Origin: Caenorhabditis elegans
Taxonomy: Eukaryota; Nematoda; Chromadorea; Rhabditida; Rhabditidae
Direction of reading: 5' to 3'
Length of the DNA stretch: 64,000 bases
NCBI RefSeq assembly: GCF_000002985.6
Contig: NC_003279.8
Span: 11,408,001 to 11,472,000, forward strand
Shown: in pieces, positions 29,850 to 64,000 of the stretch
How positions within the stretch are numbered: position 1 is the stretch's first letter
How the letters are laid out: every line of letters begins with the position of its first letter
Made by a program: the position numbers and the translations under genes
Notes under the pieces: generated by a model
Database searches by the model: none
What the model was told of the DNA's origin: nothing
Seen by the model: the letters and a program-made list of their open reading frames with translations, nothing else

Positions 29850-29854
29850 GCGAC

Positions 29855-30358: not shown

Positions 30359-30380
30359 TTGGTGCATCGACCTAACCGGC
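30359..30380 (+). promoter_or_regulatory. Putative primer-binding site
   Basis: TGGTGCATCGACC directly follows the 5' LTR; the leading TGG complements a tRNA CCA end. The tRNA species was not identified. Confidence 0.55.
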
Positions 30381-34387: not shown

Positions 34388-34589
34388 AACAGTACAAAAT
34401 CCAGAAGTGAGTTATTCTCAAGAAGTTCTTTCCCCAACTTCTTATGATTCATAGCCAGTTCCACCACTCAACCAGGAACAATGGGAGCTTGAGCAAATTA
34501 CAAAAAGACTGAGACACTGTTAATTACTCGATCCACACATATCGTATTGTAATTTTCGTTTGCTTTTGGGTAATTTCCCGTCAAATAAA

Positions 34590-36957: not shown

Positions 36958-37084
36958 CGCAAGCACATTAACAGCTTCGAAAATGGCCTGATCGCGGCGT
37001 CCATGCACACCACACCCTGGTCATCAGTCTCCGAACAAGCTTCTGATTCACCAATACACGAGGATCCGGCTAGTCGGTTATTTC

Positions 37085-39127: not shown

Positions 39128-39132
39128 GCGAC

Positions 39133-41102: not shown

Positions 41103-41175
41103 CTGAATTTCGCGTAGACCTCGTGATAAGAAGTGATCGGAAAAGCTGAGCAGAGTGGGGAAAGGGGAGTGGTGA
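41103..41175 (-). pseudogene. Isolated GT92 exon-1 fragment
   Basis: On the minus strand the sequence reads AFPITSYHEVYAKFR then AG/GTGC, parallel to the end of exon 1 in GT92-A (SFPITFYHKVYVDYR) and GT92-B (SFPITFYHKAYIDYR), with the same phase-2 donor. No following GT92 exon was found at lower coordinates, so it is probably the relic of a third gene. Confidence 0.45.
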
Positions 41176-41855
41176 AAGATGAGAGATTTTCTGAAAAAAA
41201 AACTTCAATTTTGAAGAAACTTTGTAAAATAAATTAATTTTAATGTTTTCCATTTAAAAAATAACATAAAAATCTACGATTGCTACTGAGAATTTCAAAA
41301 AATTTGAGTAAAATTTGCGTTTTTCAGTTAAAACAGTACTTTTACACATGCAAACTGTTAGCCAAAAATTATATCATTTTGTTGAAAAAATATCAAAACC
41401 CTTTTCCAAGCTTCACAAGATATAGTAATGTATTTTGAAAGCTTCATTATATGTGTTTCTTCATTTCTTTTTGTATCGATGCCCGTCTGATCTTTTTGAA
41501 ATAGAAAAAATAAAAATTGAAAATTTTCTGAAACGATATCTCTCCATATTCCATATGAGTAATAATGCCTGCCTGCCTGCCTACAAGATACGGTGTTCAA
41601 ATCAAAGTTAGAAACAACACACATCGGAGGTCAAAAAGCCACCTTTTTTTCTAAAATTTCCCAGACAATTTGTCCTAAATTTTCGGGTAATCTTCAATTT
41701 TAATCTCTCCCGAAAAGTTGCTCGCACACATTTCTCTTTTTATCGCCACTCAATCAATGTATTTTGTAGCTAAATTTTAAAATTTTGAATTAAAAAGCCT
41801 GACGGAGAATTAGATTCCAGAAAAATTATCACAAAAAGGTTCAAAGTTACAAGGT

Positions 41856-43987
41856 TCATTTGGAGAATTTTTTCAAATAAGAAATTGAGTTAATATCCCG
41901 ATATTCCGGGTCTAAAACGCTTCTGTCAAACGGGAAAAGAAGATAATCGTAGAGGTAGATTTTGTGCAGGTATTCACGAACAATCGGATCTTCTCGAACT
42001 TGCTTTTCAGCTTCCAGACGTTTGGTCCATTTGTGAGTAGAGTGAGCAGTCTCGGTAGCTGCAAAATTTTTAGAAAATTTTTTAAAAAATTATTAGAATA
42101 AATTATTAGAATAAAGTATTAGAATAAAAAAGAACCTACTCAAAATGTCTTTATAAATTTGCTCAACTAAAGTGTCACGGACGCCTTGCTTTCTTAAGAT
42201 ATCTGCTAATTTAGCAGCCGACGAAATCCGATCTTTGAGGTCCGAGTCCATAGGCAGCAGCTCCCAGTTCTCAACTCCCTCGTTGAATTTACAGTTCCTA
42301 GAAAAAATAAAATCTTAAAATAGTGCTCAATCCAAAACTCATTATTTGGTTTTTCTGAATTTAAGACTTAGCCTAAGCTTGTGGCTGAACACAAACCTTA
42401 GACTTAGCCCAAGCCTAAACCTTGGCCTAAGCCTAAGCCTAAGCCTAAGCCTAAGCCTAAGCCTAAGCCTAAGCCTAAGCCTAAGCCTAAGCCTAAGCCT
42501 AAGCCAAAGCCTAAGCCGTAAACATCGCCGGAGTATTGGATTGAGTACTTTTTAAAGAAACTTTACAGAACAATAATCTGGTCGAAAAATTTCTACTGAT
42601 ATACTTAGCCGTGCCACAATAAGATCTCACTCACCAAGTCGTTGGAGCAGCATGTGCCTCAACATACTCAATTCCCGCAGCTTTAGTCTCATTATTCTGA
42701 ATCTCGACGAATGACTCGTAGGTTTTCTTCGCGATACACCGCATATCGGTTTCACAGTCGAAACACCGTTTTTCACTTAAAATTATCAGTTTGAACTTTG
42801 ACTATTTCAGAATTTGCAACTAACACGACACATTTGTTCAAGTACATCGACACAAAACGGCGAAACGGATCCCGCACGAACACAAATCGCACTGCGTCCT
42901 TATCGTTCTTCAATGAATCGGATGGAGTCACAAAGTTTGTCTCACTAGTGCATTTCCTGGAAAAAAAAGGTGAGGCATTGAGTTCCTGCACACTACCTAC
43001 CTAGTACTTGTCTCCCAAGTATTCGTGAAATTGTTTTTATCCTGTAGGTACTGCGTTTCGTTGTACAAGAGGCACATCATGTTGAGCGTCAGCTGAGACA
43101 TAGACTTCCGGATTTCGCAGGCAATAAGCTTGTTGTCCGGAGCCGTCTGAATTATAGTTTAAGCAAGATTGCGTGCCTGGCCCCTGCTTAAGGTTAAGTT
43201 AAGGCTTAGGCTTTGGCTTGGGCTTAGGCTTACGCTTAGGCTTAGGCTTAGGTTTAGGCTTAGGCACATGCTTAGGTTTAGGCTTAGGCTTAGGCTTTGG
43301 CTTGGGTTTAGGCTTAGGCTTAGGCTTAGGCTGAATCTTAAGCTGAGGCTTAAACATGGGCATTGGGATTTCCGTGGGATTTCCAAAAAGCTTCCACATT
43401 GTTTGTTAGACCCTAAAAACCCCAAAAAACTATTTCTAATCTCTCAGAACCCCTTTTCAGGCCATTTACTTGACATAGAAATCAGCGAAAAAATTCACTG
43501 GAGCACTTTCAAATGGCGATTTCAAGGGTTCAGAGTTGAGTTCCGCCGCTGAAATTTTTGTGGTGATCTAGTCTAAACATAAGCTTTCAAATGAAATACG
43601 TATCGATTTAAAGTCCGGGACTAGATTGACCTCCTTTCCTTGTTAGGCTTAAGCTTAAGCTTAGAAAAACCAAATAAATAACACAGGTCTTATGCGAAAT
43701 TTGAAAACTTTCCTAAATTGATTTGAAACGATTTTCATTTTGGCTCTCAAGCTTTAACGGAATGCTCAAAAAGTAGGCAGTAGGCAGGCTGAACAACAAC
43801 TCACGAAAAAACTGGGTGCATAGCTGATAAACGGCTTTATGAAACCATCGGGGTTGAACCCTAAAACTTTTAGTATTTGGTTGAAAATAATCAATAACAA
43901 ACCTTTTAGGCTTTTAGGCTTTAAGACAAAATATAAAATTATCAGAACAGAAACTATCATCAATATTTTCATTGTTGATTTTTGCAT
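41856..43987 (-). CDS. Sulfotransfer_2 family carbohydrate sulfotransferase, left-arm copy
   Basis: Exact mirror of the right-arm gene. Exons: 43987-43903, 43860-43805, 43146-43001, 42956-42825, 42775-42635, 42297-42140, 42058-41856; 306 residues. Type II membrane topology: [20 protein letters not shown] is the signal anchor. The PAPS-binding motifs are a 5'-phosphosulfate loop ([14 protein letters not shown]) and a 3'-phosphate motif ([13 protein letters not shown]). Such enzymes sulfate glycans in the Golgi using PAPS. The copies are identical in coding sequence as far as compared, so both may be functional and dosage doubled. Introns carry TTAGGC-type arrays in opposite orientations (42362-42513 and 43191-43340). 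Confidence 0.88.
42362..42513 (-). repeat. Near-perfect GCCTAA telomere-like array, left arm
   Basis: A run of consecutive perfect GCCTAA units (about 42420-42500) in sulfotransferase intron 5. The right-arm copy (62913-63079) is one hexamer longer. Confidence 0.95.
43191..43340 (+). repeat. TTAGGC telomere-like array, left arm
   Basis: Imperfect TTAGGC units in sulfotransferase intron 2, mirrored at 62094-62243. Long Lys/Pro and Ser/Leu open frames here are repeat translations. Confidence 0.9.
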
Positions 43988-44540
43988 TTTCTTCCGGAAA
44001 AAAAGAAGCAAATGATCTTGGAAACCTTTGTTTATAAGGGCACAGAATATCCCAAACCGGATTTTCGAGCGACAGGACTTGAATTTGATTTTAATCTGGA
44101 CACCTTTTTGAAAGAAGAGAAACGGAGATCTAAAATGAATTTGAACGTTTTCCTTGTCTGTAGAGAAACTTTAGAGTGACTTCACAGCTGAGCTTTAAAA
44201 GTAGAGAGCTTTAATGGGAATTATTGGCCTCACTGACATGCTTCTTTGTTTTAGAAACAATCAAGATAAAGATGATTTCATCTCAAAATAAGTATGAACA
44301 AATAAATCCGTTGAAGATCCTTTATTCTACGATAGAAAGTGTTTTCATTCAGGTAATTGTTTTCTAGAAAGAAAGCCTGGCGAGATTTATACCTATTTTC
44401 AGAGAAACTATAATTTTGCTGGAATATGAAATTTCGGATTTTCAAAAATTTGGGGCAAACTCATTTGCCTGCTAGGTAGGCACAAAGTGCCTTAACTTAT
44501 CAAAACATGGTGCATTGACTTTTCTCCTTTAGATAGGGAG

Positions 44541-44897
44541 CAGGGCTGTGCGGCAACCGACATCCGAGTTGCCGGTTGCCGAAATTTTTTCGGAATCGTC
44601 AGCTTCGGCAATTGCCGGTTGCCGGAAATTTTGGGTTCGGCAACTTCGACAATTGCCGAACTTTTTTCCGCAACTTCGGCATGCTAATATTTCGCCGTAA
44701 ACGAGAAAACGACCATTATTTTTTGCCAAAACGCTCAAAAATATAATTTTAAAAAAACAACTTTAAAACTTGGTTGCCGGTTGCCGAAAAGTTGCCGAAA
44801 TTTCGGCAATCGAAAGTTGCCGGTTGCCGAAAATTTCTGGGTTCGGCAAATTCGGCAATTGCCGGTTGCCGAAAATCCCGGTTGCCGCACAGCCCTG
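44541..44897. mobile_element. hAT-like MITE, left arm (CAGGGCTGTGCGGCAACC ends)
   Basis: Inverted ends CAGGGCTGTGCGGCAACC and GGTTGCCGCACAGCCCTG; the flanking 8-mers ATAGGGAG (44533-44540) and TTAGGGAG (44898-44905) match 7 of 8, as for a hAT target duplication. Interior rich in GGCAACCGGCAA. Non-coding; mirrored at 60537-60893. Confidence 0.88.
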
Positions 44898-45496
44898 TTA
44901 GGGAGTAGAGTTTTTGGCGCTTTTTTTTCGCTGTAATACAAAACTGATTCCAAAAAAAAGAATTTCATAGAAAAAGTTCTCGAATAATTTTATTTTTTTC
45001 TTGGCGGGTAAAAAATTTCAACAAAAGCTTATCTTGCGCAAGAAAAATACACACGAGTTCCGAATTCCCATCCCTTTCAGCTAAATTATCAATTTTTCAA
45101 ACTAGGATACGAACCCACACAAAGAAGTGCCTTTGAGATATTTCACCTAAGAAACGGAGATCATTTCCGCGATTAAAGTAAATTCCGACACGAAGTCCGT
45201 CGGATTGAATCGAAAACGTGGTTGTTCGCCAAATTGAAACTTTGATAAAACTATTTGAATAATTCCGAACCATCACTATTTACAGACAAAAAACTTCAAA
45301 CCTCTAGAAATCAAGTTCCGGAAGGAATTTATCAATATTTTTTAGGTACATATGTTTTTACTTTATTCAAACAATACAAGTTATTCAAAACCGCTGTGTG
45401 TGCGCAACGTAGTGCAAAAGGTAGTTTTTTGGAAGCGGCCGACACGTTCGGGGTTCCGCGTTTGGGGTGACGCCGTTGCGGCGACTTCATTGGAAC

Positions 45497-45739
45497 TAGG
45501 GCTAAACAACCGGACGTCCGGTCGTCCGAACCGGACGCACATGCTTCCGGTTGGGGGTAGCTATCCACGACGGCCGACAATTTCCGAGTTTCGCCACTCA
45601 CTATAAAATTGCTGATTAAGTATAGTGGGTGGCGAAACTCGGAAATTGTCGGCCGCCGTGGAAACCTACCCCAAAACCGGACGCAGTGCGTCCGGTGGTG
45701 TCAAAATCGGACGACCGGACGCCGATTTGTACAGCCCTA
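45497..45739. mobile_element. hAT-like palindromic MITE, left arm (TAGGGCT ends)
   Basis: Perfect 8-bp target duplication ATTGGAAC (45489-45496, 45740-45747). Ends are TAGGGCT and AGCCCTA; long inverted arms hold CCGGACGTCCGGTCGTCC and GACGGCCGACAATTTCCGAG. Mirrored at 59695-59937. Confidence 0.92.
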
Positions 45740-45899
45740 ATTGGAACCCTACTTCTCAACTCAATTCATTCAAATTAGCTGGAAAAACTTTACACTCCTG
45801 AAAATAAAGACTAACAATAAATTGACAAATGTGAATTTTTATTTTTATTTCAAAAACAAAACTAAAATACTTCTCTAGCAAAAATATGAGATACATAGA

Positions 45900-46604
45900 T
45901 TAGACGATGAGACGTGTACCCGTTGTGAACAATCCTTCAGTCGTGTTGTATACCCAATTGGTGACATTATCCATCGCAGCTTTGCAGATTCCACCAGTGC
46001 TATGGCATACGTCGGATCTGAAAACTTTGCCGAGCTTGTACAAATTTATGACCTAACTATTTCATTCGATAGCCCATGGTTTGAAACGATTTTTCATGAA
46101 TTTTAAGCTGCGAGGCTCTAAAACTAAGCTCACGGCGAACTTTCAGAAAATACTTCAGCGCTTCTATTTTCCGCAACTTTAGAGTTTGGTAGATCAAAAC
46201 CTATTAGAAACTATTTCCACTCCTGTGACCGTGAATTTTTTATTAACAAATCCTTACTTGACTTTGGCTATGCACTTATTCAAAGTCTCAATTGGCTTGT
46301 ACGAAAATGCAGGTGGTGAATTTTCGAAAATCTTGTTCATCTGAAAATCTCTTTTTTTTTTCTATTGATATTTTTTCCTCTGACTCCCAACGCCTACCGT
46401 ATCATGCATATTCCTAATATGCCCAGCTGTGTCATTTGGGAAAAATCGATAAGACTTTCGAACAATTTTCGCTCGGATTTGCTTCACATTGAACCGAAAG
46501 TGTAGAACAGTGCCATTTGCCATTTTTGTGTAGGTGGACTTATGAAGGAACTTTCCTGGGGAATGGGTTTCACAGATATCAATAAGAGAGGTGTTGAAGA
46601 TGTA
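45900..46604 (-). pseudogene. Duplicated 3' end of GT92-B
   Basis: Exons 4-6 of GT92-B in reverse (46604-46398, 46340-46258, 46017-45900), ending at the inverted-repeat edge with only the last 10 bases of exon 3 (46742-46733). No catalytic DFDE exon, so not functional. It directly abuts direct-repeat copy 2. Confidence 0.92.
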
Positions 46605-46753
46605 CTGAAATGTGTAGGATTGAAGTTTTAAATTTTCCTAGACCTAGGCCTAAGCCTCAGCTTAAGCCTAAACCTAAGCCTAAGCTTTAGCCTGAACTTA
46701 TGCCTAAGCCTAAACCCCGCAGCAAATATTACCTTGGGCGGTTTTTTATATTT

Positions 46754-47450
46754 TCCACGTGAGTTCTATCACCGACCTAATGATTGTCTCCGCTCATCAC
46801 GAGGGATCTTCCACAGAATCCTGCCTTAACTGCCCTGGAGTTGATATGCTAGACAAGGAAGATGTGGAGGTTCTGATGAAGTACTTCAAGTTCTCCAATA
46901 CCTGGATTGATTCGATATTTGCTAGCTTGATATCTCCCAATCAAGTGGAGCTTATCCAGTGCGATCATGAGTAAGTAATTGCTGTGACTACTGCCAAATT
47001 TACCGTATAACTTTATAGGGACATTGCCAAATTCATCAATCATTCCAAATCAACCTTAGGATTCAGCCTAAGCCATCTTAATCTGAACATCATCGAGTAC
47101 TCAGTCTTCAAGTCCTTCTGTATCTGGAAGCTTGTGTATCATGAGACAAGCATCGCAATGAAGATTATGGCTCAAGAGCATTTTGAGGGTGTTACCAGTG
47201 CTCTCCGGAAGTATTACAGGGTAAGGGGAACCTATTATTTTCTGCTGAAGTCCTGTTGTGCCTGTTTTCAGAAGGAATCCAAAATGAACGACTTGGAAGT
47301 GGCAACCCGAATCGGGGATATCACATTGCAAATTATCACTGTCTCGGTATAAAAAAGGCTAATGATTAATTAATTAGTTAAATATATTGCTTCCAGAACC
47401 TCTACAACGACATGATCCGGCTATATCATCAAATTGGAGTTGAATTTTAA
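46754..47450 (+). pseudogene. Duplicated 3' half of NHR1
   Basis: Partial exon 6 (46754-46970), exon 7 (47019-47220), exon 8 (47272-47346) and exon 9 (47397-47450) of NHR1, starting mid-exon with no splice acceptor, DNA-binding domain or promoter. Open frames remain intact because the copy is recent. The unassigned frame at 24125-24502 is also repeated here at 47511-47888 (minus). Confidence 0.92.
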
Positions 47451-48967
47451 TATACTAATTTAATATAATGTATTGGGAGTGGTTTTTCTAAATTCTGATT
47501 ATTTATATTTTCAACTATTCATATAAACTTTATTATTTCGAATCGTGTTGCAAATTGCAAGTAGACACGTCCTTAAAGTGTCCTCAACGCCAACAGATCT
47601 CTTTCCGATAGGCAGCGCCGGTGCAATCTCTGACCTGACTGAGGTCTTTTGTCTCAATATTCTATTACATTGCATTGGAAACGTATTAAACTGAACGGGG
47701 TTTTTATACATATATCGGTACACAAATTGCCAGATGCAGTAGGTCGAGTTAAATTGAGGAAGGTTTTTTCCTTCAACTTTGACAGCTAATTCCACATCTT
47801 GCTTTGATTTGTCAAAGAAATTTCCATAAACATAATATAAGTCATAACTTTTCCTAGCGTTTTGTAGTAGTACACAATTTTGATATCTTCAGAATGAGCT
47901 GAGATATGGGTTATTAAAGTTATGTGGGCAGTTTTTGGTTGATGCACCATGTTTGGCTCACTCTCAATAGTTTTAAAATGGTTTGATAAATTTAGGAGGA
48001 ACCAATGTATAAGATGTTAAAATTATTCGGGGTCATATCAATGCACCATGCCAAAAAATATATCCAAAACCCCGATGCACCGTGTCCAAAAGTATATATA
48101 AAAGTGCGATGCACCATGTTCAAAAATATATTCAAAAATATGATGCTCCATGTTCAAAAATACGATGCACCATGTCAAAAAGTATATCTTGAAGTATGAT
48201 GCACCATGTCTAAAAATATATTATGAAGACTACTGTAGAATTACCGTAATTGAAAACTTGCAAACTTTGTGCTTTGCCCTACCCGATACCATCTTTAGAC
48301 TCAGTGTCTAGAAGTACCTGCCGCAGAAGATCCGAAACTAGAGATAGTTTTGTACTGGAAAATATGTATGTACTTCCTTTTTGGGATGACAAATGCGTAA
48401 TCATCTAAGCGGATCTACAACGTCTAGGACAGGACAGTTTTCGGGTTGTTTTTGAAACAAACTAGAAATAGAAACTAATTTATTTTTGAATTCAAAGGGG
48501 CTTTAGTTATTCACCAGTTATAAATAATCCCTGAGTCTTATCGTAAACCCAACTAGTGACATTATCCATTTCAGCTTTGCACAGGTTACCGGTACTATGA
48601 CACACATTTGGTCTGGAAAAAAAGACATTTAATGAAGTTCCTGGTAGTTCAAAAAAAGTTACGTTGCTTTTGCTATGCATAAGTTCATGGTTAGAATGGG
48701 AGTGTAGGAAAATATTGGCGGGGTGGCTCCGAAGATTTTGTGCATCTGAAAAACTGGCTAAACATGAAAAAAAAGGAAGTTCCAGACAGTCCGAACCGTA
48801 TCATGCATATTCCAAATGTGACCTTCTGTGCTGTTCGGGAAAAATCTATATGGTTTTTCCACAACGTTAGCTTTAATTTCCTTAATATTAAATCGAAAAT
48901 GTAGTACTGTTCCATTGGAAAACAGTGTAGTTGTTGAGTTGTGCAGGAATTTTCCGGGTGAGTGAGT
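46754..48967. repeat. 2,214-bp direct repeat, copy 2
   Basis: Same sequence as 23368-25581. It lies between the inverted-repeat edge (46742) and the intact part of GT92-A. The 11 bases at 46743-46753 (GTTTTTTATAT) belong to neither repeat. Confidence 0.95.
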
Positions 48968-51946
48968 TTCGCAGATATCTATGAGAGATGTGTTGAAGAT
49001 GTACTGGAAGTAGGATTTTATCTGTTTCAGAAATGCCAAAAGTCTGCAAAAGCTTTAAACTTAAGCTTGGCGTCAGAGGCGAGCGTTAGCTCGCCACTGA
49101 CGCTATTTAGGATTAGGCTTAGGTTCAGTCTTTGGATTAGGATTAAGCCTAGGCTTACGCTTAGATCCAGGATTTGGCTTAGGTTTAGGCTTAAGCTTAG
49201 GCTTAGGCTTAGGCTTAGGCTTAGACTTAAGCTTGGCGTCAGTGGCAAGCGTAAGCTCGCTACTGACGCTATTTAGGCTTATTATGCTTAGGCTTAGGCT
49301 TAGGCTGAGGCTTAGGTTTAGGCTTGGGCTTAGGCTTATGCTTGGGATAAGGCTTAGACTTAGGCTTAAGCTAGGCTTAGGCTTAGGTTTTATGCTCATT
49401 CTTAGGCTTAGGCTTGGACATAGGCTTAGGCTTAGGCTTAGGCTTAGGCTCCTTTTCTTACAGTCAAAATTAAGTTTCAACAAAAATACCAAAATTTTCG
49501 TGGTGGGACCCTAACAATTCGAAATTTCGTAAATCTTCCAGTTATGCAGAGCTGTTCAACCGTGAAGTAATGAAAAAGGCATACATTTTAAGAAAAATTG
49601 CAAAAAAAAATTGCAATTTGAAAAAAAACAACTTATAGGACTTCGTGTTGGGACTCTATAATTTACGAAATTCCGTCAAATTATAAGCTTATGGACTGGG
49701 TTTTGCCTTGTAAGTAGATTTATTACACCAAAAAATGATACTATAAAATACAATTTGAATTAAAATTCTGGATCCAGAAAATTGTTTTTTTTTTCAATTT
49801 TTAAAAAATAATTTCAAATATTGTTGGCTAAGAATTAGGCTTAGGCTTAGACTTAAGCTTAGGTTTAGGCTAGGTACTATTACTTAGGGGTGGCTATAGG
49901 TCGACATAGGTCGATCTGCGACCTAGCGACCTAGGTCGCATTGCGACCTGAATTACCGACATTTTGTTCTCTTTCGGTTTTGATTCACTTGAGTTGTTAA
50001 AATCCGTATAACTCGAAAACTAAAGATTGCAGAATATGTATATTCCACTAACATTTTCTCTATTAAGATTTTACAAGTTTATGCGTTGTTTCTAAAATTT
50101 AATTTTTCACTTTTCGAATTAAAAACGTAGAAAAAAGCACAGAACAAAGCTGTTGTGGACGGAACGTAAACCTGAGCTTTATACAGACGTGACCTTTGGG
50201 TCATCATGAACTTATCGCGTAAGCGACCTCTCTTTATTATTCATTACTTCTTACACCTATTGTAATAAACGACTTCTCTCCTTGTCTCTCGCTCAATACA
50301 CAACAAAAGCATTGATTTCTACAAATTCTACAATTCTACAAAAAAAAAATTGAAATTTAGAAAGTTAAAACATGACGGGGGGAACGAAACCCATAAGTAC
50401 CATATTTTTCAAGTTGAAACAATTTTAGTCAGCAGCAAAACCGGCGGATGTCGGCTGTTCTAACTTTTTTCGACAAGGTGTCTTATGGATAAGAAATCGA
50501 AAACAATGTAAAATAAATGATTTGTAGCAATTTGTTAGTATACATATTCTGCAATCTTATGTAGTTTTCGAGTTATACAGATTTTAACAACTCAAGTGAA
50601 GGTCACAAAGCGACCCAGGTCGCTAGGTCGCAGGTCGCTAGGTCGCACTCTTGCCACCCCTACAACTACTTAAAATTTCCGGCATGTCGGATTAATGCCG
50701 AAAGAAATTTTCCGCCAGATCGGCAAATTTGCCGGAATTGAAAATTTTCGGTGACTGGGCAAACCGGCAATATGATGGAATTAAAAATTTCGACAAACCG
50801 GCAAACCGGCAAATTGTCGGAAATAAAAAAAATGCTTACCTTGGGTGGCGCAAAAATATTAATGAACGTTAGAGTCTTCATTCCAGAAAAGTCATTCGTA
50901 TAAATATTTGGCTCCAATCCGACATGAGTGTTCTCAAATAACAATGCTCCAATATTCTTCCCAGCCATCACCAGCTCCGCATATTCCAGCACACTACCAT
51001 CCCCTGGAACCATGACCTCATCGAAATCGGCGACAATGCCCAGCTCCGTCCGAATTTCTAGAGAGCAAACTTGCAGAGCAATATGGGATGCGATAATGAA
51101 TACACTGTCATCTATCTTCGGGTGATAAGGTGCAATATATGAAGAGAGGGCTCCTACATTTGGCCAAGGTCGTAGCTCAATGAGCCCAAGCTTTTCATAG
51201 TAGTCCAGAACTTTTTTGGTGTCTTGTGTGGCTGAATGAAAGTAGACTATAAATCGAGTTGCTCCCTGAGCCCGCCAAGCTTCGATGTATAAGATTACGT
51301 TTTGCCATTGAGAATAGTAATAGACGATTTGTAGGCATACAGTGAGGCCTTTTTCATATGATTTTCCAATTTCAACGATTTCGGAGAGGAAAGCTTCTCG
51401 GTGGCCCAACTGGATGGATACCTGAAAATTAAGTATAAAAAATGGTTGGGGTCTGGGGTCTGGCGTCTCGGATCTGGGATATGGGCTCTGACCTGGGATC
51501 TGGTCTCGGGGATTACCTTCTGAACTACTCCATTTTCTGGAAGCACCCCATAAAAATGGTGCGGAACATAGAAGCAATTCCTTGCGGGACCATATACCGG
51601 TGGGCAATTTCCTTCGTAAAATCCAAAGGAATATCCGTTAAGCTTCAATTTTGTAATCGTTCCGTTATAATATACATGTACTAGTAAGTAGTTACTTGCC
51701 TTGATACAAGGGTTCAAGCTAAATATTCTTAGACGGGGTGGACTGGTTCTGGAATTAAGTTACCAAAAAATTGTCAGAAAATTTTTTTTAAAAAAACCTG
51801 TAATCCACATAAACCTTGTGATAAAATGTGATGGGAAATGATGCATTTATTTGGTTTTTTAATAAGCTCTGATTCTGAAACCTTGGGTAAACGTAGAATA
51901 TAGTGAAATACAAGCAAACAGGCAAGAAATCGAAGGAAAACTTCAT
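48507..51946 (-). CDS. GT92 (DUF23) glycosyltransferase, GT92-A
   Basis: Six exons on the minus strand with matching phases: 51946-51798, 51748-51517, 51421-50840, 49003-48797, 48745-48663, 48612-48507; 452 residues. The N-terminal hydrophobic anchor (FLPVCLYFTIFYVY) suggests a Golgi type II protein. The GT92 core contains LTVCLQIVYYYSQWQNVILY, EAWRAQGATRFIVYFHSAT and the DXD-like metal/nucleotide-sugar motif VADFDEVMVP; FENTHV and the C-terminal cysteines (DICETHSPGKF, VCHSTGNLC) follow. The C. elegans GT92 member GALT-1 adds galactose to fucose on N-glycans; this paralogue's substrate is unknown. Its last exons lie in direct-repeat copy 2. Intron 3 (50839-49004) contains a TTAGGC array and a foldback element. 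Likely functional. Confidence 0.9.
49098..49460 (+). repeat. TTAGGC array with two embedded hairpins, GT92-A intron 3
   Basis: About 45 imperfect TTAGGC units. Hairpin blocks near 49067-49106 (GGCGTCAGAGGCGAGC / GCTCGCCACTGACGC) and 49230-49270 (GGCGTCAGTGGCAAGC / GCTCGCTACTGACGC) sit in the array, both flanked by TTAAGCTT and ATTTAGG. A smaller array lies at 49835-49875. Confidence 0.88.
49885..50662. mobile_element. Foldback element, hAT-like ends, in GT92-A intron 3
   Basis: TAGGGGTGGC and GCCACCCCTA terminal inverted repeats; flanking 8-mers CTATTACT and CAACTACT match 6 of 8. Inner arms are long: ACTTGAGTTGTTAAAATCCG and AACTCGAAAAC face GTTTTCGAGTTAT and GATTTTAACAACTCAAGT. TAGGTCGC-rich subterminal repeats. 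No transposase. Confidence 0.8.
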
Positions 51947-53063: not shown

Positions 53064-55052
53064 TCACTCTAACAATGGATTCCTACACTCCTCATCTCCA
53101 ACATTAATCATAAAAGTTCGAATAAATGGATCAGCATAGTAAGACCTCAACATAATATATCTTCTATCTTCAAGAACTCTCCACACAAAATCATGAAACA
53201 TCTGCTTTTCGCCAATTGGTTGCTCGAATACTCCACTGTGAACTTCAATATTCATCTGACAAATTGTGACACCTGCATTGTCAATTGCTCCATTTCTATG
53301 AAGTTGCTCCATTATCGGAAACTCATTCTGCTCGACATCAATCCATAGAATATCGATCAGACTTTTGTTGAGGATGTACTTGAAGAAGTAGTCAACTGCG
53401 ATGTGCTCGGTGGTCTCGGTTCTGTAAGCCAGCTCTTCTTTTTGCTCTGAAAAAAGCTAGATAAATATTTTATTTTTTTGATATTTTGGTTTTCTATTTT
53501 TGTCTAGTTATAACGATTTTTTTCCGGCAATTCGGCGAATTGCCGGAATTGAAAATTTTCGGCAAATTGGTAAACCGGCAAAGTGCTGATATGTAGAATT
53601 TGCCGAGAAACGGTAAATCGGCAAATTGCCGGAATTTAAATTACCGGAAATTCGGCAAATCGCCGGAATTGAACATTTTCGGCAAGTTGGAAAATTGCCG
53701 GAATTGAAATTTCCGGAAATCAGCAAATTGCCGGAATTGAAAATTTCCGGAAATTCGGCAAATCGCCGGAATTGAAAATTTCCGGCAAATTGGAAAATTG
53801 CCGGAATTCAAATTTTCCGGCAAATTGGAAAATTGTCGGAATTGAAAATTTCCGGCAAATCGGCAAACCGAGAAAGTGCAAATTTGCGAATTTGCGGAAA
53901 AACGGCAGATTGCCGTACATTTTCGGCAAATTGTGGTTTTTCACTTTTTTTTGGAAATTTAAGAATTTCAATTTTTTCAAAAGGTCACAGTTTTAAGTCC
54001 TTCTGTCTTGTAAGAAATCCCTCTAAAAAATTCCGGCAAAATGATATCCGGCAAATCGGTAAACCGGCAACTTGGCAAATCGGCAAATTGCCAAATTTGC
54101 AGAAAAAAACGGCAATTGGTGAAAATTTTCCGTCAATTGTGGTTTTGCACATTTTTTTTTGGAAAATTCAGAATTTCAATTTTAGTCGGCAAAATTGTAC
54201 GCATCCTATGAATGTTTCTACAGACAAATCGGCAAACCCGAAAATTGCCGGAATTGAAATTTCCGGCAAATCGGCAAAAGTTTTTTTGCCGGAAATTGCT
54301 AGTACTCAAGCTAATTTACAGGTGCTCAAGCTAATTAACAAAAAAGCACACAAAAAATACCTGTATAAATACTTGATTTCTGCACTCCGGTCTCTCCACT
54401 AACTGCGTATCGGTAGTACTTTCCTCCCAGCTTATCTTCATAGAGGATCTTATTCACTTCGGGAGATGGATCGGCTCCATAGAATTGAGTATTCGGATGA
54501 AGCTCCTTCAAACTGATCTCTCCCATAATATCGTGTCCGATACCAAGTGTGACCATTGTGAGAAGTTGGCTCTGATTCCGAGGAAGAGCTATGTACTTTG
54601 TCTCGTCTTTGTTGTACACGTGACGGATGTCCAGCGCATTGTAGGCTTTGAGATTGTCGCATTCCTCAGTTAGACTGGAGAACTCGTCGAAGAACTGAAA
54701 TTTTTGAAGGTTTTTGGACGATTCTAACCTAGTTTTCTTGAAAGGAACTTACCTCAACATATTTCCCTTTGAGCGGTCTCAACTTCGGGTAGACGCAGTT
54801 ATAATAAGCATCAAAAAGCGGAGAGGACTTGTACGACGTTAAATTTCTCGCAGTGTCATGTCTAACCGGCGGTGGAGCCCATTTGAACACATTAAGTTCA
54901 TTTTCCTCCTTTAGCGGCTTCTTGTCATTATAGTTGGAATAGAGCATAAATACCACAAATACCAAAGCGCCGAACAAAATCAATCGGGGTAGACTACGCA
55001 TTGGAAGTCGTTCGGTTAGCCGAAGCTTATCAAATCGGGAGTACGGAAGCAT
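53064..55052 (-). CDS. FkbM-type (Methyltransf_21) methyltransferase-like membrane protein
   Basis: Three exons on the minus strand: 55052-54753, 54694-54361, 53446-53064; 338 residues from the ATG at 55052, or 321 from an in-frame ATG at 55001. The segment LPRLILFGALVFVVFMLYSN is a type II signal anchor. The SAM-binding core looks like VTLGIGHDIMGEISLK (glycine loop), YGADPSPEVN (acidic end of strand 2) and LIDILWIDVEQNEFPIM (the IDxEG-like motif of FkbM methyltransferases, here IDVEQ). Nematodes have an expanded family of such proteins with unknown substrates. It lies between the two GT92 genes. Intron 2 (54360-53447) is full of CCGGCAAATTGCC repeats. Either start is possible; both keep the anchor. 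Confidence 0.78.
53520..54300. repeat. CCGGCAAATTGCCGGAATTG arrays in methyltransferase intron 2
   Basis: Two blocks (53520-53880 and 54030-54300) of palindromic GGCAAATTGCCGGAATTGAA units with AATTTCCGG spacers. Confidence 0.85.
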
Positions 55053-55356
55053 GACAGCGGAGTGATGTAAAATTTCGGTCCAGAAAGCGCTTTTAAGCCA
55101 GCAAGGTGCAGAGATATCATCGGTACATAGATCTACGGATAGAGAATCCGAGGCGAGGGGAAACCGGAATCCAGTGGATTTTTGGTGTTCCGATGGATAG
55201 CTTTGTCTTTTCACCATATTTTCAGAAATACGAATGCTATGATTCAAGAAAGCACCCGCTCGGAAGCTCCTGAAATGCCGTGTCCTTTGTAAAAAACCCA
55301 AAAAGTTTAGTTAAACCGTTGTACACGAATTGACGAACCTTAACTGGGGAGTACAG

Positions 55357-55490
55357 AGCCTAAGCTTAAGCCCAAGCCTGAGCCTAAGCCTACACCTAAG
55401 TCTAAGCCTAAGCCTAATACTAAGCCAAAGCCAACGCCAAAGCCAAAGCCAAATCCAAAGCCTAAGCCTAATCCTAAGCCGGCCTAAGCC
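55357..55490 (-). repeat. GCCTAA telomere-like array
   Basis: Imperfect GCCTAA units, the middle portion having drifted to GCCAAA, upstream of the methyltransferase gene. Confidence 0.88.
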
Positions 55491-56057
55491 TGAGCTTCAA
55501 GGATCGGACTATTGGTTACAGTCCTCTTTTCAGACAAGATCCATATGATTTGAAAGTTGGTCAGTGCTCTGAATTTTTTGTAGTGGCCTATACTGCCACA
55601 GGCCTAAATAATAACCTGCCACATTCCTTTCCCAAAATTCATTTCCCCATTTCCAGAATCAGAATACATTTCCCACCGAATCCACACAAAATGCTGCCAC
55701 GCACCTCGATTGTGTCGGCAGATATCTACAAAAGCCGGTCGTAAAGCTGAGTCTTCTTGTGCTAGATCAGAAGCTGGATATGGGGGGAATAATTCGGGAA
55801 AGTGAGATGAAAATCAAAAAGACTTGAATTTGCAAATCTCCACGGTGGAACAAAGGGAATTAATGTCTTCAGCTCTACAAATAAATCTGTGTAATCTGTC
55901 CTGTATTAATCTAGAATAGAGCATGAGGAGCGATTTTCAAAATTTCCTGCAATCGGCATGCGGTGTCAGGTTGTCCCATAGCTTCATTGCACACAAAAAT
56001 GGGGAAAAAATATATTTGAGTTTTTGTGACGTCACAGCTGTGAACTTTTCAATTATT

Positions 56058-56877
56058 CTCGCCAGTGGGGAAATTGTTAAAAACCACACCCTTGGTCCAA
56101 AAATGATCAAACATCATGATAAAACTTTTTAAAAATTTTTTGAAAATTTTTTATTTACTGGCAAAAAGTGACAGTTACTCACTATCAGTTTTTGCCACTC
56201 ATAATTTTGGAAGTATTTTGGAACCAAAAAAAAAAACTTTCGCCTTTTTTCGTTTTAATTTTGTTTAAAATATTTGTATTAAAGGTGGAGTAGCGCAATT
56301 GGGGAAATGATTTTTCCATATTTTCTGATTGAGACGTGAACTTTTTTTCATTCTCAGGCTTAGGGAAATGATTTTCTAAGCCTTGTAAAAATGAAAACAG
56401 TATTAAAATAAACATTCACGTGTGGATTAAAATTAAAAAGGTAGTGTTAAATAATTAAAAATCATTTTGGGGGAACGAAACCCATAAGTACCTGGGGATT
56501 TTGTCTAAATCTTTATAATGATCCAAAACAACCGAATATCATAATAAAACACTCCAAAAAGTTTTAGATTTTTCATAATTTCCGGTCAAAGTTTTGGAAA
56601 ATTGCCAAAATTTTGAAAAATACAAGCTTTTGAATAAATTTAAAGAAATGTCGCATGTTTCGACCCCTACAATGTTTTAATACAAATAATTTTAACAAAA
56701 TTAAAACATAAAAAATGTCGAAAAAATTTTTTTGGTCGGCTTCCAAATTTATGAGTGGCAAAAACTGAGTAATTGCCACTTTTTGACAGTAAATAAAAAG
56801 TTTTCAAAAAAGTTTTTTCATTTTGGGACCATTAGTTTTTAAAAATTTTCCCACTGGCGCTACTCCATCTTTAACAA
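56058..56877. mobile_element. Foldback (inverted-repeat) element
   Basis: About 140-base inverted arms: GCCAGTGGGGAAATTGTTAA .. TTTTTGCCACTCATAATTTT (56063-56210) faces CCAAATTTATGAGTGGCAAA .. AATTTTCCCACTGGCGCTAC (56743-56865). The middle repeats part of the terminal motif (GGTGGAGTAGCGCAATTGGGG at 56284), suggesting a nested or rearranged copy. A block at about 56470-56490 (GGGGAACGAAACCCATAAGT) also occurs in the foldback at 49885, at about 50380. No transposase. Confidence 0.75.
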
Positions 56878-57172
56878 AATTTCTTGTTTACACGCAAATG
56901 TAGTTTGATGTTTAAATCTGAATATAGCAATACTTTATGACCCAGTACATAAAAACTCGTTCTAAGTAATTTCAGCCCAATTGAAAGTGGCAGAATCAAA
57001 AAATTGACTTTCTCACTCAGAAACTCGATTACACCGATGCCATCGCACCCGACAAAATTCGGATTATCCGTTCTTCGGAGACTTCACGGTAAAAGATGAG
57101 ATAAGAATGCCTATATTTGAATGTCTGAATATAAAAGCATTCTCGCGAGCGGCTTGCTGTTTCAATTTCGAA

Positions 57173-59534
57173 ATGACTCGATTCAAATACAAATACCTTT
57201 TCTATTCTCTAATTCCTATATTTTTGTACTTACTGGTTTTTCATCCAGTGATAACATTTCTAAGTTCGAGAGGCCAACCAATCAACTCTTCGTTTCCAAT
57301 AACCTTCTACCACAAGGCATATATTGATTACAGGTAGGTTAACATTAATATCATTTTCCAAATGTTTGTGAAAAAATCAATAAACTTCCAGAACCAACCC
57401 TCCCCGTCTCCGGCTGTTCAGTCTAAACCCATGCGTTAAACCGAATACCTATCTACTAATTGATGTGTACAACAGAGGAAGTCCCATTCCGAATGAAGTA
57501 AAACTCTTGGGAGATCCTTTTGGGTTCTTCAATGAAAATTGTCCACCGGTTTATGGTCCTGCCACGCATTGTTTCTACGTTCCACACACTTTTTATGGGG
57601 TGCTTCCAGACAATGGAATAATTGAGAAGGTATGTAATTAATTGAGCAACTCCCACTAATTTTGTGCCGGTGCCGGCAGCCGAAAAATCGATGAAGTAGT
57701 TCATGTGCATGGCCAAAATTATTCCTTATTGGGCTGTATTTTGTTTTAAAAAAACGTTGAAATTATCTTTTATTGCCATCAATAATGGGACTCTTTCTAT
57801 ATACATAATTCCAATTTCCAGTTCCTCAAATTTGTCTAAAATTTCTCAAAAGTTATGTCATTTTAGCTGCTCTAATTTTTTCCGGAATATAGTTATATTA
57901 TATTGACACTGATGAAAATGTAGAAAATGCAATGGACAACATTTTGTTTGTTGAAAATATTTTTCTAGCTATCATAGTTTTTGAGTTAAACGTGTTTGGA
58001 AACCTTAAACAAATGGCCTTACTATTAGGCTTAGGCTCAGGCTTAGGCTTAGGCTTAGGCAAAGGTTAGGGATAAGGATAAAGCCTATGACCCTCAGATA
58101 GTTGACCTATTTATTTTTTCAGGCTACCATACGATGGGAAGACCGAGAAATAGAATTTGCCATTGAGGAAATCGGGAAAAAATACGAGCGAGGCCTCACT
58201 GTATGCCTACAAATCGTCTATTACTATTCTCAATGGCAAAACGTAATCTTATACATTGAAGCCTGGCGGGCTCAGGGAGCAACTCGTTTTATAGTTTTTT
58301 ATCATTCATCCACAGAAGACACCAAAAAAGTTCTGGACTACTATGAAAAACTGGGGCTTATTGAGCTACGACCCTGGCCCAACATTGGCGAGCTCTCTTC
58401 AAATATTTCCCCGATGTACCCAAAAGTTGATGAAAGTGTGTTTATTATTGCAACTCATATGGCTCTTCAAATATGTTCTCTGGAAATTAAGACGTCTTTG
58501 GGTATTGTTGCGGATTTCGATGAGGTTATGGTACCCGATAAGGGTACTGTACTTGATCATGCGATGAAGGAAATGACCGGGAAGGATATTGGAGCATTGT
58601 TGTTTGAAAATACACATGTTGCACTGACGCCTAATATTTATACGAATAACTACTCAGGAGTGAGGTCACTGACGTTCACCGATATTTTCGCACCGCCCAA
58701 GGTAATATTTGCTGCGGGGTTTAGGCTTAGGCATAAGTTCAGGCTAAAGCTTAGGCTTAGGTTTAGGCTTAAGCTGAGGCTTAGGCCTAGGTCTAGGAAA
58801 ATTTAAAACTTCAATCCTACACATTTCAGTACATCTTCAACACCTCTCTTATTGATATCTGTGAAACCCATTCCCCAGGAAAGTTCCTTCATAAGTCCAC
58901 CTACACAAAAATGGCAAATGGCACTGTTCTACACTTTCGGTTCAATGTGAAGCAAATCCGAGCGAAAATTGTTCGAAAGTCTTATCGATTTTTCCCAAAT
59001 GACACAGCTGGGCATATTAGGAATATGCATGATACGGTAGGCGTTGGGAGTCAGAGGAAAAAATATCAATAGAAAAAAAAAAGAGATTTTCAGATGAACA
59101 AGATTTTCGAAAATTCACCACCTGCATTTTCGTACAAGCCAATTGAGACTTTGAATAAGTGCATAGCCAAAGTCAAGTAAGGATTTGTTAATAAAAAATT
59201 CACGGTCACAGGAGTGGAAATAGTTTCTAATAGGTTTTGATCTACCAAACTCTAAAGTTGCGGAAAATAGAAGCGCTGAAGTATTTTCTGAAAGTTCGCC
59301 GTGAGCTTAGTTTTAGAGCCTCGCAGCTTAAAATTCATGAAAAATCGTTTCAAACCATGGGCTATCGAATGAAATAGTTAGGTCATAAATTTGTACAAGC
59401 TCGGCAAAGTTTTCAGATCCGACGTATGCCATAGCACTGGTGGAATCTGCAAAGCTGCGATGGATAATGTCACCAATTGGGTATACAACACGACTGAAGG
59501 ATTGTTCACAACGGGTACACGTATCATCGTCTAA
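57173..59534 (+). CDS. GT92 (DUF23) glycosyltransferase, GT92-B
   Basis: Six exons with matching phases: 57173-57333, 57392-57629, 58123-58701, 58830-59036, 59094-59176, 59417-59534; 461 residues. Exons 3-6 match GT92-A in length within three codons (exons 4 and 5 are exactly 207 and 83), so the genes are recent paralogues. Type II anchor: LFYSLIPIFLYLLVF. Core: VCLQIVYYYSQWQNVILYIE, EAWRAQGATRFIVFYHSST, and VADFDEVMVP at about residues 255-264 as the putative DXD site; then FENTHV and VCHSTGGIC. An ATG at 57107 would add 22 residues, but starting at 57173 puts the anchor at the N-terminus as in GT92-A. Exons 4-6 lie in the right arm of the inverted duplication. Introns 2 and 3 hold TTAGGC arrays (58028-58070, 58720-58790). 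Glycan substrate unknown. Confidence 0.9.
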
Positions 59535-59694
59535 TCTATGTATCTCATATTTTTGCTAGAGAAGTATTTTAGTTTTGTTTTTGAAATAAAAATAAAAATT
59601 CACATTTGTCAATTTATTGTTAGTCTTTATTTTCAGGAGTGTAAAGTTTTTCCAGCTAATTTGAATGAATTGAGTTGAGAAGTAGGGTTCCAAT

Positions 59695-59937
59695 TAGGGC
59701 TGTACAAATCGGCGTCCGGTCGTCCGATTTTGACACCACCGGACGCACTGCGTCCGGTTTTGGGGTAGGTTTCCACGGCGGCCGACAATTTCCGAGTTTC
59801 GCCACCCACTATACTTAATCAGCAATTTTATAGTGAGAGGCGAAACTCGGAAATTGTCGGCCGTCGTGGATAGCTACCCCCAACCGGAAGCATGTGCGTC
59901 CGGTTCGGACGACCGGACGTCCGGTTGTTTAGCCCTA
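59695..59937. mobile_element. hAT-like palindromic MITE, right arm (TAGGGCT ends)
   Basis: Mirror of 45497-45739, with the same 8-bp target duplication (GTTCCAAT on this strand). Its presence in both arms shows it predates the duplication. Confidence 0.92.
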
Positions 59938-60536
59938 GTTCCAATGAAGTCGCCGCAACGGCGTCACCCCAAACGCGGAACCCCGAACGTGTCGGCCGCT
60001 TCCAAAAAACTACCTTTTGCACTACGTTGCGCACACACAGCGGTTTTGAATAACTTGTATTGTTTGAATAAAGTAAAAACATATGTACCTAAAAAATATT
60101 GATAAATTCCTTCCGGAACTTGATTTCTAGAGGTTTGAAGTTTTTTGTCTGTAAATAGTGATGGTTCGGAATTATTCAAATAGTTTTATCAAAGTTTCAA
60201 TTTGGCGAACAACCACGTTTTCGATTCAATCCGACGGACTTCGTGTCGGAATTTACTTTAATCGCGGAAATGATCTCCGTTTCTTAGGTGAAATATCTCA
60301 AAGGCACTTCTTTGTGTGGGTTCGTATCCTAGTTTGAAAAATTGATAATTTAGCTGAAAGGGATGGGAATTCGGAACTCGTGTGTATTTTTCTTGCGCAA
60401 GATAAGCTTTTGTTGAAATTTTTTACCCGCCAAGAAAAAAATAAAATTATTCGAGAACTTTTTCTATGAAATTCTTTTTTTTGGAATCAGTTTTGTATTA
60501 CAGCGAAAAAAAAGCGCCAAAAACTCTACTCCCTAA

Positions 60537-60893
60537 CAGGGCTGTGCGGCAACCGGGATTTTCGGCAACCGGCAATTGCCGAATTTGCCGAACCCAGAAA
60601 TTTTCGGCAACCGGCAACTTTCGATTGCCGAAATTTCGGCAACTTTTCGGCAACCGGCAACCAAGTTTTAAAGTTGTTTTTTTAAAATTATATTTTTGAG
60701 CGTTTTGGCAAAAAATAATGGTCGTTTTCTCGTTTACGGCGAAATATTAGCATGCCGAAGTTGCGGAAAAAAGTTCGGCAATTGTCGAAGTTGCCGAACC
60801 CAAAATTTCCGGCAACCGGCAATTGCCGAAGCTGACGATTCCGAAAAAATTTCGGCAACCGGCAACTCGGATGTCGGTTGCCGCACAGCCCTG
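60537..60893. mobile_element. hAT-like MITE, right arm (CAGGGCTGTG ends)
   Basis: Mirror of 44541-44897. Confidence 0.88.
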
Positions 60894-61446
60894 CTCCCTA
60901 TCTAAAGGAGAAAAGTCAATGCACCATGTTTTGATAAGTTAAGGCACTTTGTGCCTACCTAGCAGGCAAATGAGTTTGCCCCAAATTTTTGAAAATCCGA
61001 AATTTCATATTCCAGCAAAATTATAGTTTCTCTGAAAATAGGTATAAATCTCGCCAGGCTTTCTTTCTAGAAAACAATTACCTGAATGAAAATACTTTCT
61101 ATCGTAGAATAAAGGATCTTCAACGGATTTATTTGTTCATACTTATTTTGAGATGAAATCATCTTTATCTTGATTGTTTCTAAAACAAAGAAGCATGTCA
61201 GTGAGGCCAATAATTCCCATTAAAGCTCTCTACTTTTAAAGCTCAGCTGTGAAGTCACTCTAAAGTTTCTCTACAGACAAGGAAAACGTTCAAATTCATT
61301 TTAGATCTCCGTTTCTCTTCTTTCAAAAAGGTGTCCAGATTAAAATCAAATTCAAGTCCTGTCGCTCGAAAATCCGGTTTGGGATATTCTGTGCCCTTAT
61401 AAACAAAGGTTTCCAAGATCATTTGCTTCTTTTTTTCCGGAAGAAA

Positions 61447-63584
61447 ATGCAAAAATCAACAATGAAAATATTGATGATAGTTTCTGTTCTGATAATTTTA
61501 TATTTTGTCTTAAAGCCTAAAAGCCTAAAAGGTTTGTTATTGATTATTTTCAACCAAATACTAAAAGTTTTAGGGTTCAACCCCGATGGTTTCATAAAGC
61601 CGTTTATCAGCTATGCACCCAGTTTTTTCGTGAGTTGTTGTTCAGCCTGCCTACTGCCTACTTTTTGAGCATTCCGTTAAAGCTTGAGAGCCAAAATGAA
61701 AATCGTTTCAAATCAATTTAGGAAAGTTTTCAAATTTCGCATAAGACCTGTGTTATTTATTTGGTTTTTCTAAGCTTAAGCTTAAGCCTAACAAGGAAAG
61801 GAGGTCAATCTAGTCCCGGACTTTAAATCGATACGTATTTCATTTGAAAGCTTATGTTTAGACTAGATCACCACAAAAATTTCAGCGGCGGAACTCAACT
61901 CTGAACCCTTGAAATCGCCATTTGAAAGTGCTCCAGTGAATTTTTTCGCTGATTTCTATGTCAAGTAAATGGCCTGAAAAGGGGTTCTGAGAGATTAGAA
62001 ATAGTTTTTTGGGGTTTTTAGGGTCTAACAAACAATGTGGAAGCTTTTTGGAAATCCCACGGAAATCCCAATGCCCATGTTTAAGCCTCAGCTTAAGATT
62101 CAGCCTAAGCCTAAGCCTAAGCCTAAACCCAAGCCAAAGCCTAAGCCTAAGCCTAAACCTAAGCATGTGCCTAAGCCTAAACCTAAGCCTAAGCCTAAGC
62201 GTAAGCCTAAGCCCAAGCCAAAGCCTAAGCCTTAACTTAACCTTAAGCAGGGGCCAGGCACGCAATCTTGCTTAAACTATAATTCAGACGGCTCCGGACA
62301 ACAAGCTTATTGCCTGCGAAATCCGGAAGTCTATGTCTCAGCTGACGCTCAACATGATGTGCCTCTTGTACAACGAAACGCAGTACCTACAGGATAAAAA
62401 CAATTTCACGAATACTTGGGAGACAAGTACTAGGTAGGTAGTGTGCAGGAACTCAATGCCTCACCTTTTTTTTCCAGGAAATGCACTAGTGAGACAAACT
62501 TTGTGACTCCATCCGATTCATTGAAGAACGATAAGGACGCAGTGCGATTTGTGTTCGTGCGGGATCCGTTTCGCCGTTTTGTGTCGATGTACTTGAACAA
62601 ATGTGTCGTGTTAGTTGCAAATTCTGAAATAGTCAAAGTTCAAACTGATAATTTTAAGTGAAAAACGGTGTTTCGACTGTGAAACCGATATGCGGTGTAT
62701 CGCGAAGAAAACCTACGAGTCATTCGTCGAGATTCAGAATAATGAGACTAAAGCTGCGGGAATTGAGTATGTTGAGGCACATGCTGCTCCAACGACTTGG
62801 TGAGTGAGATCTTATTGTGGCACGGCTAAGTATATCAGTAGAAATTTTTCGACCAGATTATTGTTCTGTAAAGTTTCTTTAAAAAGTACTCAATCCAATA
62901 CTCCGGCGATGTTTACGGCTTAGGCTTTGGCTTAGGCTTAGGCTTAGGCTTAGGCTTAGGCTTAGGCTTAGGCTTAGGCTTAGGCTTAGGCTTAGGCTTA
63001 GGCTTAGGCTTAGGCCAAGGTTTAGGCTTGGGCTAAGTCTAAGGTTTGTGTTCAGCCACAAGCTTAGGCTAAGTCTTAAATTCAGAAAAACCAAATAATG
63101 AGTTTTGGATTGAGCACTATTTTAAGATTTTATTTTTTCTAGGAACTGTAAATTCAACGAGGGAGTTGAGAACTGGGAGCTGCTGCCTATGGACTCGGAC
63201 CTCAAAGATCGGATTTCGTCGGCTGCTAAATTAGCAGATATCTTAAGAAAGCAAGGCGTCCGTGACACTTTAGTTGAGCAAATTTATAAAGACATTTTGA
63301 GTAGGTTCTTTTTTATTCTAATACTTTATTCTAATAATTTATTCTAATAATTTTTTAAAAAATTTTCTAAAAATTTTGCAGCTACCGAGACTGCTCACTC
63401 TACTCACAAATGGACCAAACGTCTGGAAGCTGAAAAGCAAGTTCGAGAAGATCCGATTGTTCGTGAATACCTGCACAAAATCTACCTCTACGATTATCTT
63501 CTTTTCCCGTTTGACAGAAGCGTTTTAGACCCGGAATATCGGGATATTAACTCAATTTCTTATTTGAAAAAATTCTCCAAATGA
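61447..63584 (+). CDS. Sulfotransfer_2 family carbohydrate sulfotransferase, right-arm copy
   Basis: Seven exons with consistent phases: 61447-61531, 61574-61629, 62288-62433, 62478-62609, 62659-62799, 63143-63300, 63382-63584; 306 residues ending TGA. Anchor at residues about 6-21 ([16 protein letters not shown]); PAPS 5'-phosphosulfate loop at about residues 50-63 ([15 protein letters not shown]); 3'-phosphate motif at about residues 123-135 ([14 protein letters not shown]), including the conserved RDP and Ser. Paired cysteines follow ([12 protein letters not shown]). Golgi glycan sulfation with PAPS is the family role; the acceptor is unknown. The exon-5 acceptor TTTTAAG is off-consensus in both copies. 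Lies downstream of GT92-B on the same strand, about 1.9 kb away, which is too far for a typical worm operon. Confidence 0.9.
62094..62243 (-). repeat. GCCTAA telomere-like array, right arm
   Basis: Mirror of 43191-43340, in sulfotransferase intron 2. Confidence 0.9.
62913..63079 (+). repeat. TTAGGC telomere-like array, right arm, one unit longer
   Basis: Mirror of 42362-42513 with one extra TTAGGC, the only length difference found between the arms. Confidence 0.95.
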
Positions 63585-64000
63585 ACCTTGTAACTTTGAA
63601 CCTTTTTGTGATAATTTTTCTGGAATCTAATTCTCCGTCAGGCTTTTTAATTCAAAATTTTAAAATTTAGCTACAAAATACATTGATTGAGTGGCGATAA
63701 AAAGAGAAATGTGTGCGAGCAACTTTTCGGGAGAGATTAAAATTGAAGATTACCCGAAAATTTAGGACAAATTGTCTGGGAAATTTTAGAAAAAAAGGTG
63801 GCTTTTTGACCTCCGATGTGTGTTGTTTCTAACTTTGATTTGAACACCGTATCTTGTAGGCAGGCAGGCAGGCATTATTACTCATATGGAATATGGAGAG
63901 ATATCGTTTCAGAAAATTTTCAATTTTTATTTTTTCTATTTCAAAAAGATCAGACGGGCATCGATACAAAAAGAAATGAAGAAACACATATAATGAAGCT
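63585..64000. other. 3' flank of the right-arm sulfotransferase
   Basis: No gene seen. Identical in reverse to 41440-41855; includes a short GGCAGGCAGGCAGGC run near 63858. Confidence 0.5.

Follow-up and report, generated by a model that had tools for sequence, protein, structure and literature searches.

A compound direct and inverted segmental duplication around bah-1 in Caenorhabditis elegans, probably formed by template switching

A 64-kb stretch of the Caenorhabditis elegans genome (hereafter the window; positions 11408001–11472000 of the chromosome contig) carries, and at its right edge runs on into, a complex segmental duplication in which a proximal segment, A, is repeated directly, a distal segment, R, is repeated in inverted orientation, and an interval between them, S, is single. 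Read from left to right, the segments now run A, inverted R, A, S, R, with A and R twice and S once in a 94-kb neighbourhood composed of the window, 20 kb rightward and 10 kb leftward. Order and orientation, local copy numbers, base-level junctions and three ancestral boundaries can be read directly from the DNA. The layout is that termed DUP-NML-INV/DUP, and it was probably produced when a single repair or replication event switched template twice.

Extent and layout of the repeats

An earlier note on this DNA had described a near-perfect inverted duplication of at least 5.3 kb with a 12-kb spacer. Alignment bears this out: positions 58692–64000 pair with 46742–41440 over 5309 columns at 99.83% identity, with 3 mismatches and one 6-bp gap, and the spacer measures 11.95 kb. 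Of the differences that the note gave between the arms, the single 6-bp unit stands, telomere-like and found in the right copy only (near 63015, missing at 42424 in the left), but the single base does not, three having been found (left 44341/right 61093, left 45596/right 59838 and left 45911/right 59523). Pairing does run on beyond the window edge, as had been suspected, unbroken to 64554/40886 (40886–46742 with 58692–64554; 5857 aligned bases with the same 3 mismatches and 6-bp unit) and with interruptions to 74343/25634, where 74343 is contig position 11482343. The pairing map of the extended contig (94 kb) thus contains the inverted repeat at about three times the 5.3 kb first seen, as 25634–46742 with 58692–74343. 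The outward pieces pair 64561–64834 with 39400–39128, 64830–66028 with 29854–28657, 69100–70173 with 28661–27586, 70217–72039 with 27816–25995 and 73982–74343 with 25995–25634. A genome search with the arm gave only two full-length matches among the best 40 of 1489 candidates, all other matches among those 40 being shorter than 400 bases.

The inverted duplication is real but not simple, and the event that produced it was compound, also duplicating a second segment directly. This 2214-bp direct repeat, absent from the earlier note, places 23368–25581 against 46754–48967 with one mismatch (23490/46876), and it has two full-length copies genome-wide (11/11 candidates scored). Copy 1 runs up to the outer end of the left arm and copy 2 starts 11 bases from that arm's inner end; since the A copies abut both ends of the left arm, the direct and inverted repeats are parts of one structure. 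Its components are as follows.

23368..25581, plus strand: A copy 1, the proximal duplicated segment (2214 bp), direct; left boundary ancestral, inside an NHR-like gene
25581..25634, plus strand: junction 1, A distal end to R distal end, with a 54-bp insert from A
25634..46742, minus strand: inverted (derived) copy of R, the distal duplicated segment, in collinear inverted pairing with 58692–74343
29855..39127, plus strand: LTR retroelement of 9.27 kb in the left copy, LTRs at 29855–30358 and 38638–39127
39407..40885, no strand assigned: left-only stretch of 1479 bp, adjoining a divergent patch and holding dispersed repeats
40886..46742, minus strand: inner left arm, unbroken pairing with 58692–64554
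46743..46753, plus strand: junction 2, R proximal end to A proximal end, with an 11–12-bp filler
46754..48967, plus strand: A copy 2; right boundary ancestral, GT92-A reading through 48967/48968
48968..58691, plus strand: S (9.7 kb), no second copy in the 94-kb neighbourhood
58692..64000 in the window and on to 74343, plus strand: ancestral copy of R, with the 3' part of bah-1 and a sulfotransferase gene
66029–69099: right-only stretch of 3071 bp, holding dispersed repeats
72040–73981: putative Helitron-like element of 1942 bp, right copy only, sitting between A and T and ending in CTGG after a hairpin

The inverted R now spans 21.1 kb because of the retroelement, ancestral R being 15.7 kb at present. 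For S, a genome-wide check of 1692 of its 9724 bases (57000–58691) gave no other full copy among the best 40 of 331 candidates, the other matches among them being pieces of GT92-A (80% and 68%) and short ones.

Three primers published for bah-1 (PMC2727005) match the window exactly, at 55334 (plus), 57332 (minus) and 59531 (minus), and the gene previously called GT92-B is therefore bah-1 (ZK1025.7). One of the three arm differences falls within the reverse primer, whose single exact match in the 94 kb lies in the right copy. Within S are the bulk of GT92-A, a gene with a methyltransferase domain and the 5' portion of bah-1. In the inverted R lie NHR-like genes, together with a sulfotransferase and the truncated tail of bah-1. 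The doubling of the bah-1 tail and of the sulfotransferase had both been noted; PF03567 falls on two exons of the latter, and these together with a third right-arm piece (61264–61665) have exact left-arm copies. The methyltransferase domain, of FkbM type (PF05050), lies at 54338–54748 in the spacer between both GT92 genes. Elsewhere in the window, a tandem array at 12274–13075 is built of about 6.5 copies of a 123-bp unit with higher-order periods.

Ancestral boundaries and junction scars

Three segment boundaries are crossed by genes. An exon of GT92-A on the minus strand crosses the A/S boundary at 48967/8, its translation being identical to that of the bah-1 paralogue at 59/78 positions through the join, and PF01697 matches 48761–49054, which spans the same boundary. 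At S/R (58691/2) it is bah-1 that reads through, with rescue primers at 55334 (plus) and 59531 (minus) on either side, and GT92-A has an exon homologous to that of bah-1 at this point (144/195 identical up to query end 58692). The left boundary of A, at 23367/8, is crossed by an NHR-like gene (31/59 identical to a paralogue at 28755); the label derives from paralogy, the zf-C4 match being only on the neighbouring piece 27291–27545, and two pieces of the gene at 23346 gave no accepted Pfam match. Because genes read through all three boundaries, the second A, S and the second R stand in ancestral order and the block 25582–46753 is the insertion, made up of R in inverted form and, after it, a second beginning of A. 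No gene crosses 74343/4, and this boundary is taken as ancestral only on the ground that the insert sits at the opposite end of R; the sequence beyond it occurs once, short repeats aside (7/7 candidates scored). The interval 23346–29429 as a whole holds three NHR-like paralogues in alternating orientation, with zf-C4 on one piece, which suggests that they come from older local duplications.

The opposite polarity was considered and rejected, namely a tandem duplication of 23368–46742 and a later inversion that broke the DNA at 48967/8 and 74343/4. That model predicts a tail of GT92-A from 74344 on, and none was found by tblastx of 57500–60800 against 73900–80000, in which matches were mostly to simple repeats, with a few short weak ones. 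With GT92-A continuous across 48967/8 and no GT92 tail at 74344, the model has its polarity reversed.

The two derived junctions carry different scars. At junction 1, the 54 bp were copied with 1 mismatch from 25118–25171 inside A, a template that ends about 410 bp from the break, and the insert shares a 1-bp overlap with each neighbour. At junction 2, no second exact copy of the filler 12-mer exists within the 94 kb. TTAGGC hexamers, considered as possible drivers of the breaks, number within 800 bp 6 at 46742, 20 at 48967, 11 at 58692, 2 at 23368, and 0 at both 25581 and 74343, with 220 in the 94 kb overall. Interstitial TTAGGC arrays are numerous and occur in many places, for instance at 49107–49450.

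A template-switching account of these features would begin with an ancestor in which A (2.2 kb), S (9.7 kb) and R (15.7 kb at present) each occurred once. Synthesis during repair of a break or failed fork would have passed through A and gone over 54 bp of it a second time, then jumped to the distal end of R and run back along R until it reached a point within bah-1. A second switch, to the start of A, would have allowed synthesis onward through A, S and R, giving A, inverted R, A, S, R; the LTR retroelement would later have entered the left copy and the Helitron-like element the right. We infer that both switches belong to one event, with which the similar divergence of A and R is consistent, and the enzyme may have been polymerase theta or part of a microhomology-mediated replicative process. 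In C. elegans, polymerase theta is reported to leave scars with single-base homology and templated inserts that contain errors (PMC5068794), and junction 1 resembles these in its single-base overlaps and in a templated insert with one mismatch. The scars described there are deletions, however, whereas the present event gained about 21 kb (present length). Moreover, among the insert-bearing deletions of that paper, 37–44% had inserts mapped within 20 bp, in about half the insert was too short to place and in about 3% it came from a distant site, and a template some 410 bp away sits poorly with mapped inserts that derive mostly from within 20 bp.

Three further observations tell against template switching. 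Divergence between the copies is not uniform (28/558 in a patch beside the 1479-bp left-only stretch, and 22/266 in a tandem array), and four large indels, with at least two mobile-element insertions among them, are many for some 0.1–0.2 million generations. An inversion that duplicated its ends, with recombination between the arms afterwards, would account for both junctions too. In such a history, A–S–R would have inverted with ends duplicated by staggered breaks, giving A, inverted (A S R), R, after which recombination between the R arms flipped the inside back. Only the same two junctions are needed, the discussion of human cases in PMC6902434 notes that three structures satisfy junctions of this kind, and the inner arms, 5.9 kb long with 3 mismatches over 5857 bases, offer good substrates for recombination. 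Nevertheless, the breaks would have to be staggered by as much as 15.7 kb at one end, a further event is required and nothing in the sequence demands a flip, and we regard this history as unlikely.

Divergence, later insertions and age

Over the arms and A the copies differ at 11 of 11,726 sites, a count that leaves out one tandem array and one divergent patch as well as a few aligned bases beside indels (such as a mismatch at 28659). Within the array (27549–27821), 22/266 differ. The patch, comprising 29567–29854 and 39133–39404 against about 64557–65118, differs at 28/558 (about 5%, versus about 0.1% elsewhere). Ectopic conversion from another locus was tried as its source and discarded: among the best 40 candidates of each search, no donor is closer to the patch than the partner copy. 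Replacement from a divergent natural haplotype is possible.

The interruptions of the pairing give an internal order of events. The retroelement is bordered by the target-site duplication GCGAC, with the uninterrupted site at 64830–64834 in the right copy, and it entered the left copy after the duplication. Across 492 aligned columns its LTRs show 2 substitutions and a single 2-bp gap. The 5' LTR is matched at at least 93% by seven other loci, and in both these and its own 3' LTR the match starts only at position 13. Among the eight open pieces scanned (one pair overlapping), DUF1759 was matched on one; no reverse transcriptase match was obtained on these pieces, taken as single unmended frames. 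In the right copy, 72040–73981 is presumably Helitron-like, as we judge from its flanking A and T and its CTGG end after a hairpin. It holds inner tandem units of about 35 bp and is one of many related sequences in the genome; among the best 40 of 1080 candidates, one matches over the full length at 89%. For the right-only stretch at 66029–69099, a 2-bp overlap at the left join points to either loss of sequence from the left copy or an insertion into the right one.

The mutation rate is 2.1–2.7e-9 per site per generation. At this rate, 11/11,726 gives the duplication an age of about 0.17–0.22 million generations, and the inner arm with A alone an age of about 0.09–0.12 million. The earlier note's description of a large and young inverted duplication holds up. 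Its further claim, that gene conversion keeps the arms similar, was not demonstrated: with only 11/11,726 sites different, youth accounts for the identity, and the arms are alike mainly because the event is recent.

The rival that this claim implies, an old inverted duplication with arms kept similar by conversion, does find some purchase in the data. The inner arm with A is less diverged than the outer part (4/8071 vs 7/3655, P = 0.043), although the tests are marginal and the boundaries were chosen post hoc. An earlier hand count with one extra edge mismatch beside an indel (outer 8/3685) gave P = 0.013, and the inner arm alone against the outer part gave P = 0.052. The LTR pair, at 2/490, is more diverged than the inner arm, at 3/5857 (P = 0.051), though the LTR element postdates the duplication, and gene conversion has been reported between C. 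elegans paralogues in inverted orientation (PMC3966223). There is thus a hint, marginal and post hoc, of homogenisation of the inner arm. Yet 1553 aligned bases of outer R, at 25996–27548, hold no mismatch, and the two A copies, which are direct and separated by 23 kb, are as alike as the inner arms (1/2214). Maintenance of an old duplication by conversion is therefore an improbable account, a little more so than inversion followed by a flip.

Also unlikely, if a little less so, is a combined picture in which a natural single-event template switch left arms that are still recombining, so that both spacer orientations would be expected among wild isolates, and in which conversion homogenised the inner 5.9 kb after the retroelement arrived. 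In this picture the truncated inverted tail of bah-1 could also give rise to small RNAs against bah-1 itself. With a 12-kb spacer, arm-to-arm recombination that flips the spacer seems likelier than the hairpin formation to which the earlier note had thought such repeats prone.

Two independent duplications, of A once and of R in inverted orientation at another time, would suit the separateness of the segments and the single S in the neighbourhood, but each derived junction joins A to R, both border the same inserted block, and the divergences of A and R are similar, and this history is very unlikely. Near-identical repeats can be misplaced in assemblies, but an artefact is scarcely credible where the copies differ by base changes, by the 6-bp unit and by insertions present in one copy only, with a target-site duplication and the corresponding empty site, and where the published bah-1 reverse primer lies on an arm difference and matches the right copy only.

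Relation to known rearrangements and consequences

In DUP-NML-INV/DUP rearrangements, one junction joins distal ends and the other proximal ends (PMC6902434). The worm duplication resembles the human PLP1 cases of that paper in that two duplicated segments flank a copy-neutral interval and in that a distal–distal join (25581/25634) is paired with a proximal–proximal one (46742/46754), with insertions at some of the joins. In the worm variant it is the distal segment that lies inverted, flanked on each side by a direct copy of the proximal segment. Unlike the PLP1 cases, it spans tens of kilobases, lies in a nematode reference and is old enough for later mobile-element insertions, and its layout was read from sequence, whereas the PLP1 layout was inferred from arrays. 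Two PLP1 cases with this layout are described there with opposite-oriented LINE/Alu pairs at a join, which are not seen in the worm.

Within C. elegans, Vergara et al. (2009; PMC2728738) described young intrachromosomal duplications, many of them inverted and holding one to few genes, and the present case is likewise young, intrachromosomal and inverted. Their Table 2 of adjacent tandem pairs, which uses older-release coordinates, has no row at I:11.43–11.48 Mb, probably because genes lie between these copies; adjacent tandem inverted pairs have a gene-free spacer, whereas two GT92 genes and a methyltransferase domain intervene here. Human Y palindromes, which undergo gene conversion, are also large inverted repeats, with arm identity above 99.9% (PMC3723533), but for the worm there is no good evidence of conversion over youth. 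In titles and abstract openings, with supplements and most subscription papers outside the search, no published description of the duplication was found, and in the accessible text of the bah-1 paper (PMC2727005) the words "duplication" and "inverted" are both absent.

The duplication is a cleanly resolved case of a known rearrangement class, and ties a worm duplication to one known from human disease. This would make a sizeable inverted repeat in a widely used reference genome the product of a repair or replication accident with readable scars, and the mobile-element insertions, each in one copy, give its internal order of events. The event yielded second copies of a sulfotransferase and of NHR-like genes, together with truncated tail copies of three genes (bah-1, GT92-A and an NHR-like gene). 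RNAi, CRISPR and PCR near bah-1 or these sulfotransferases call for caution, as there are two near-identical copies.
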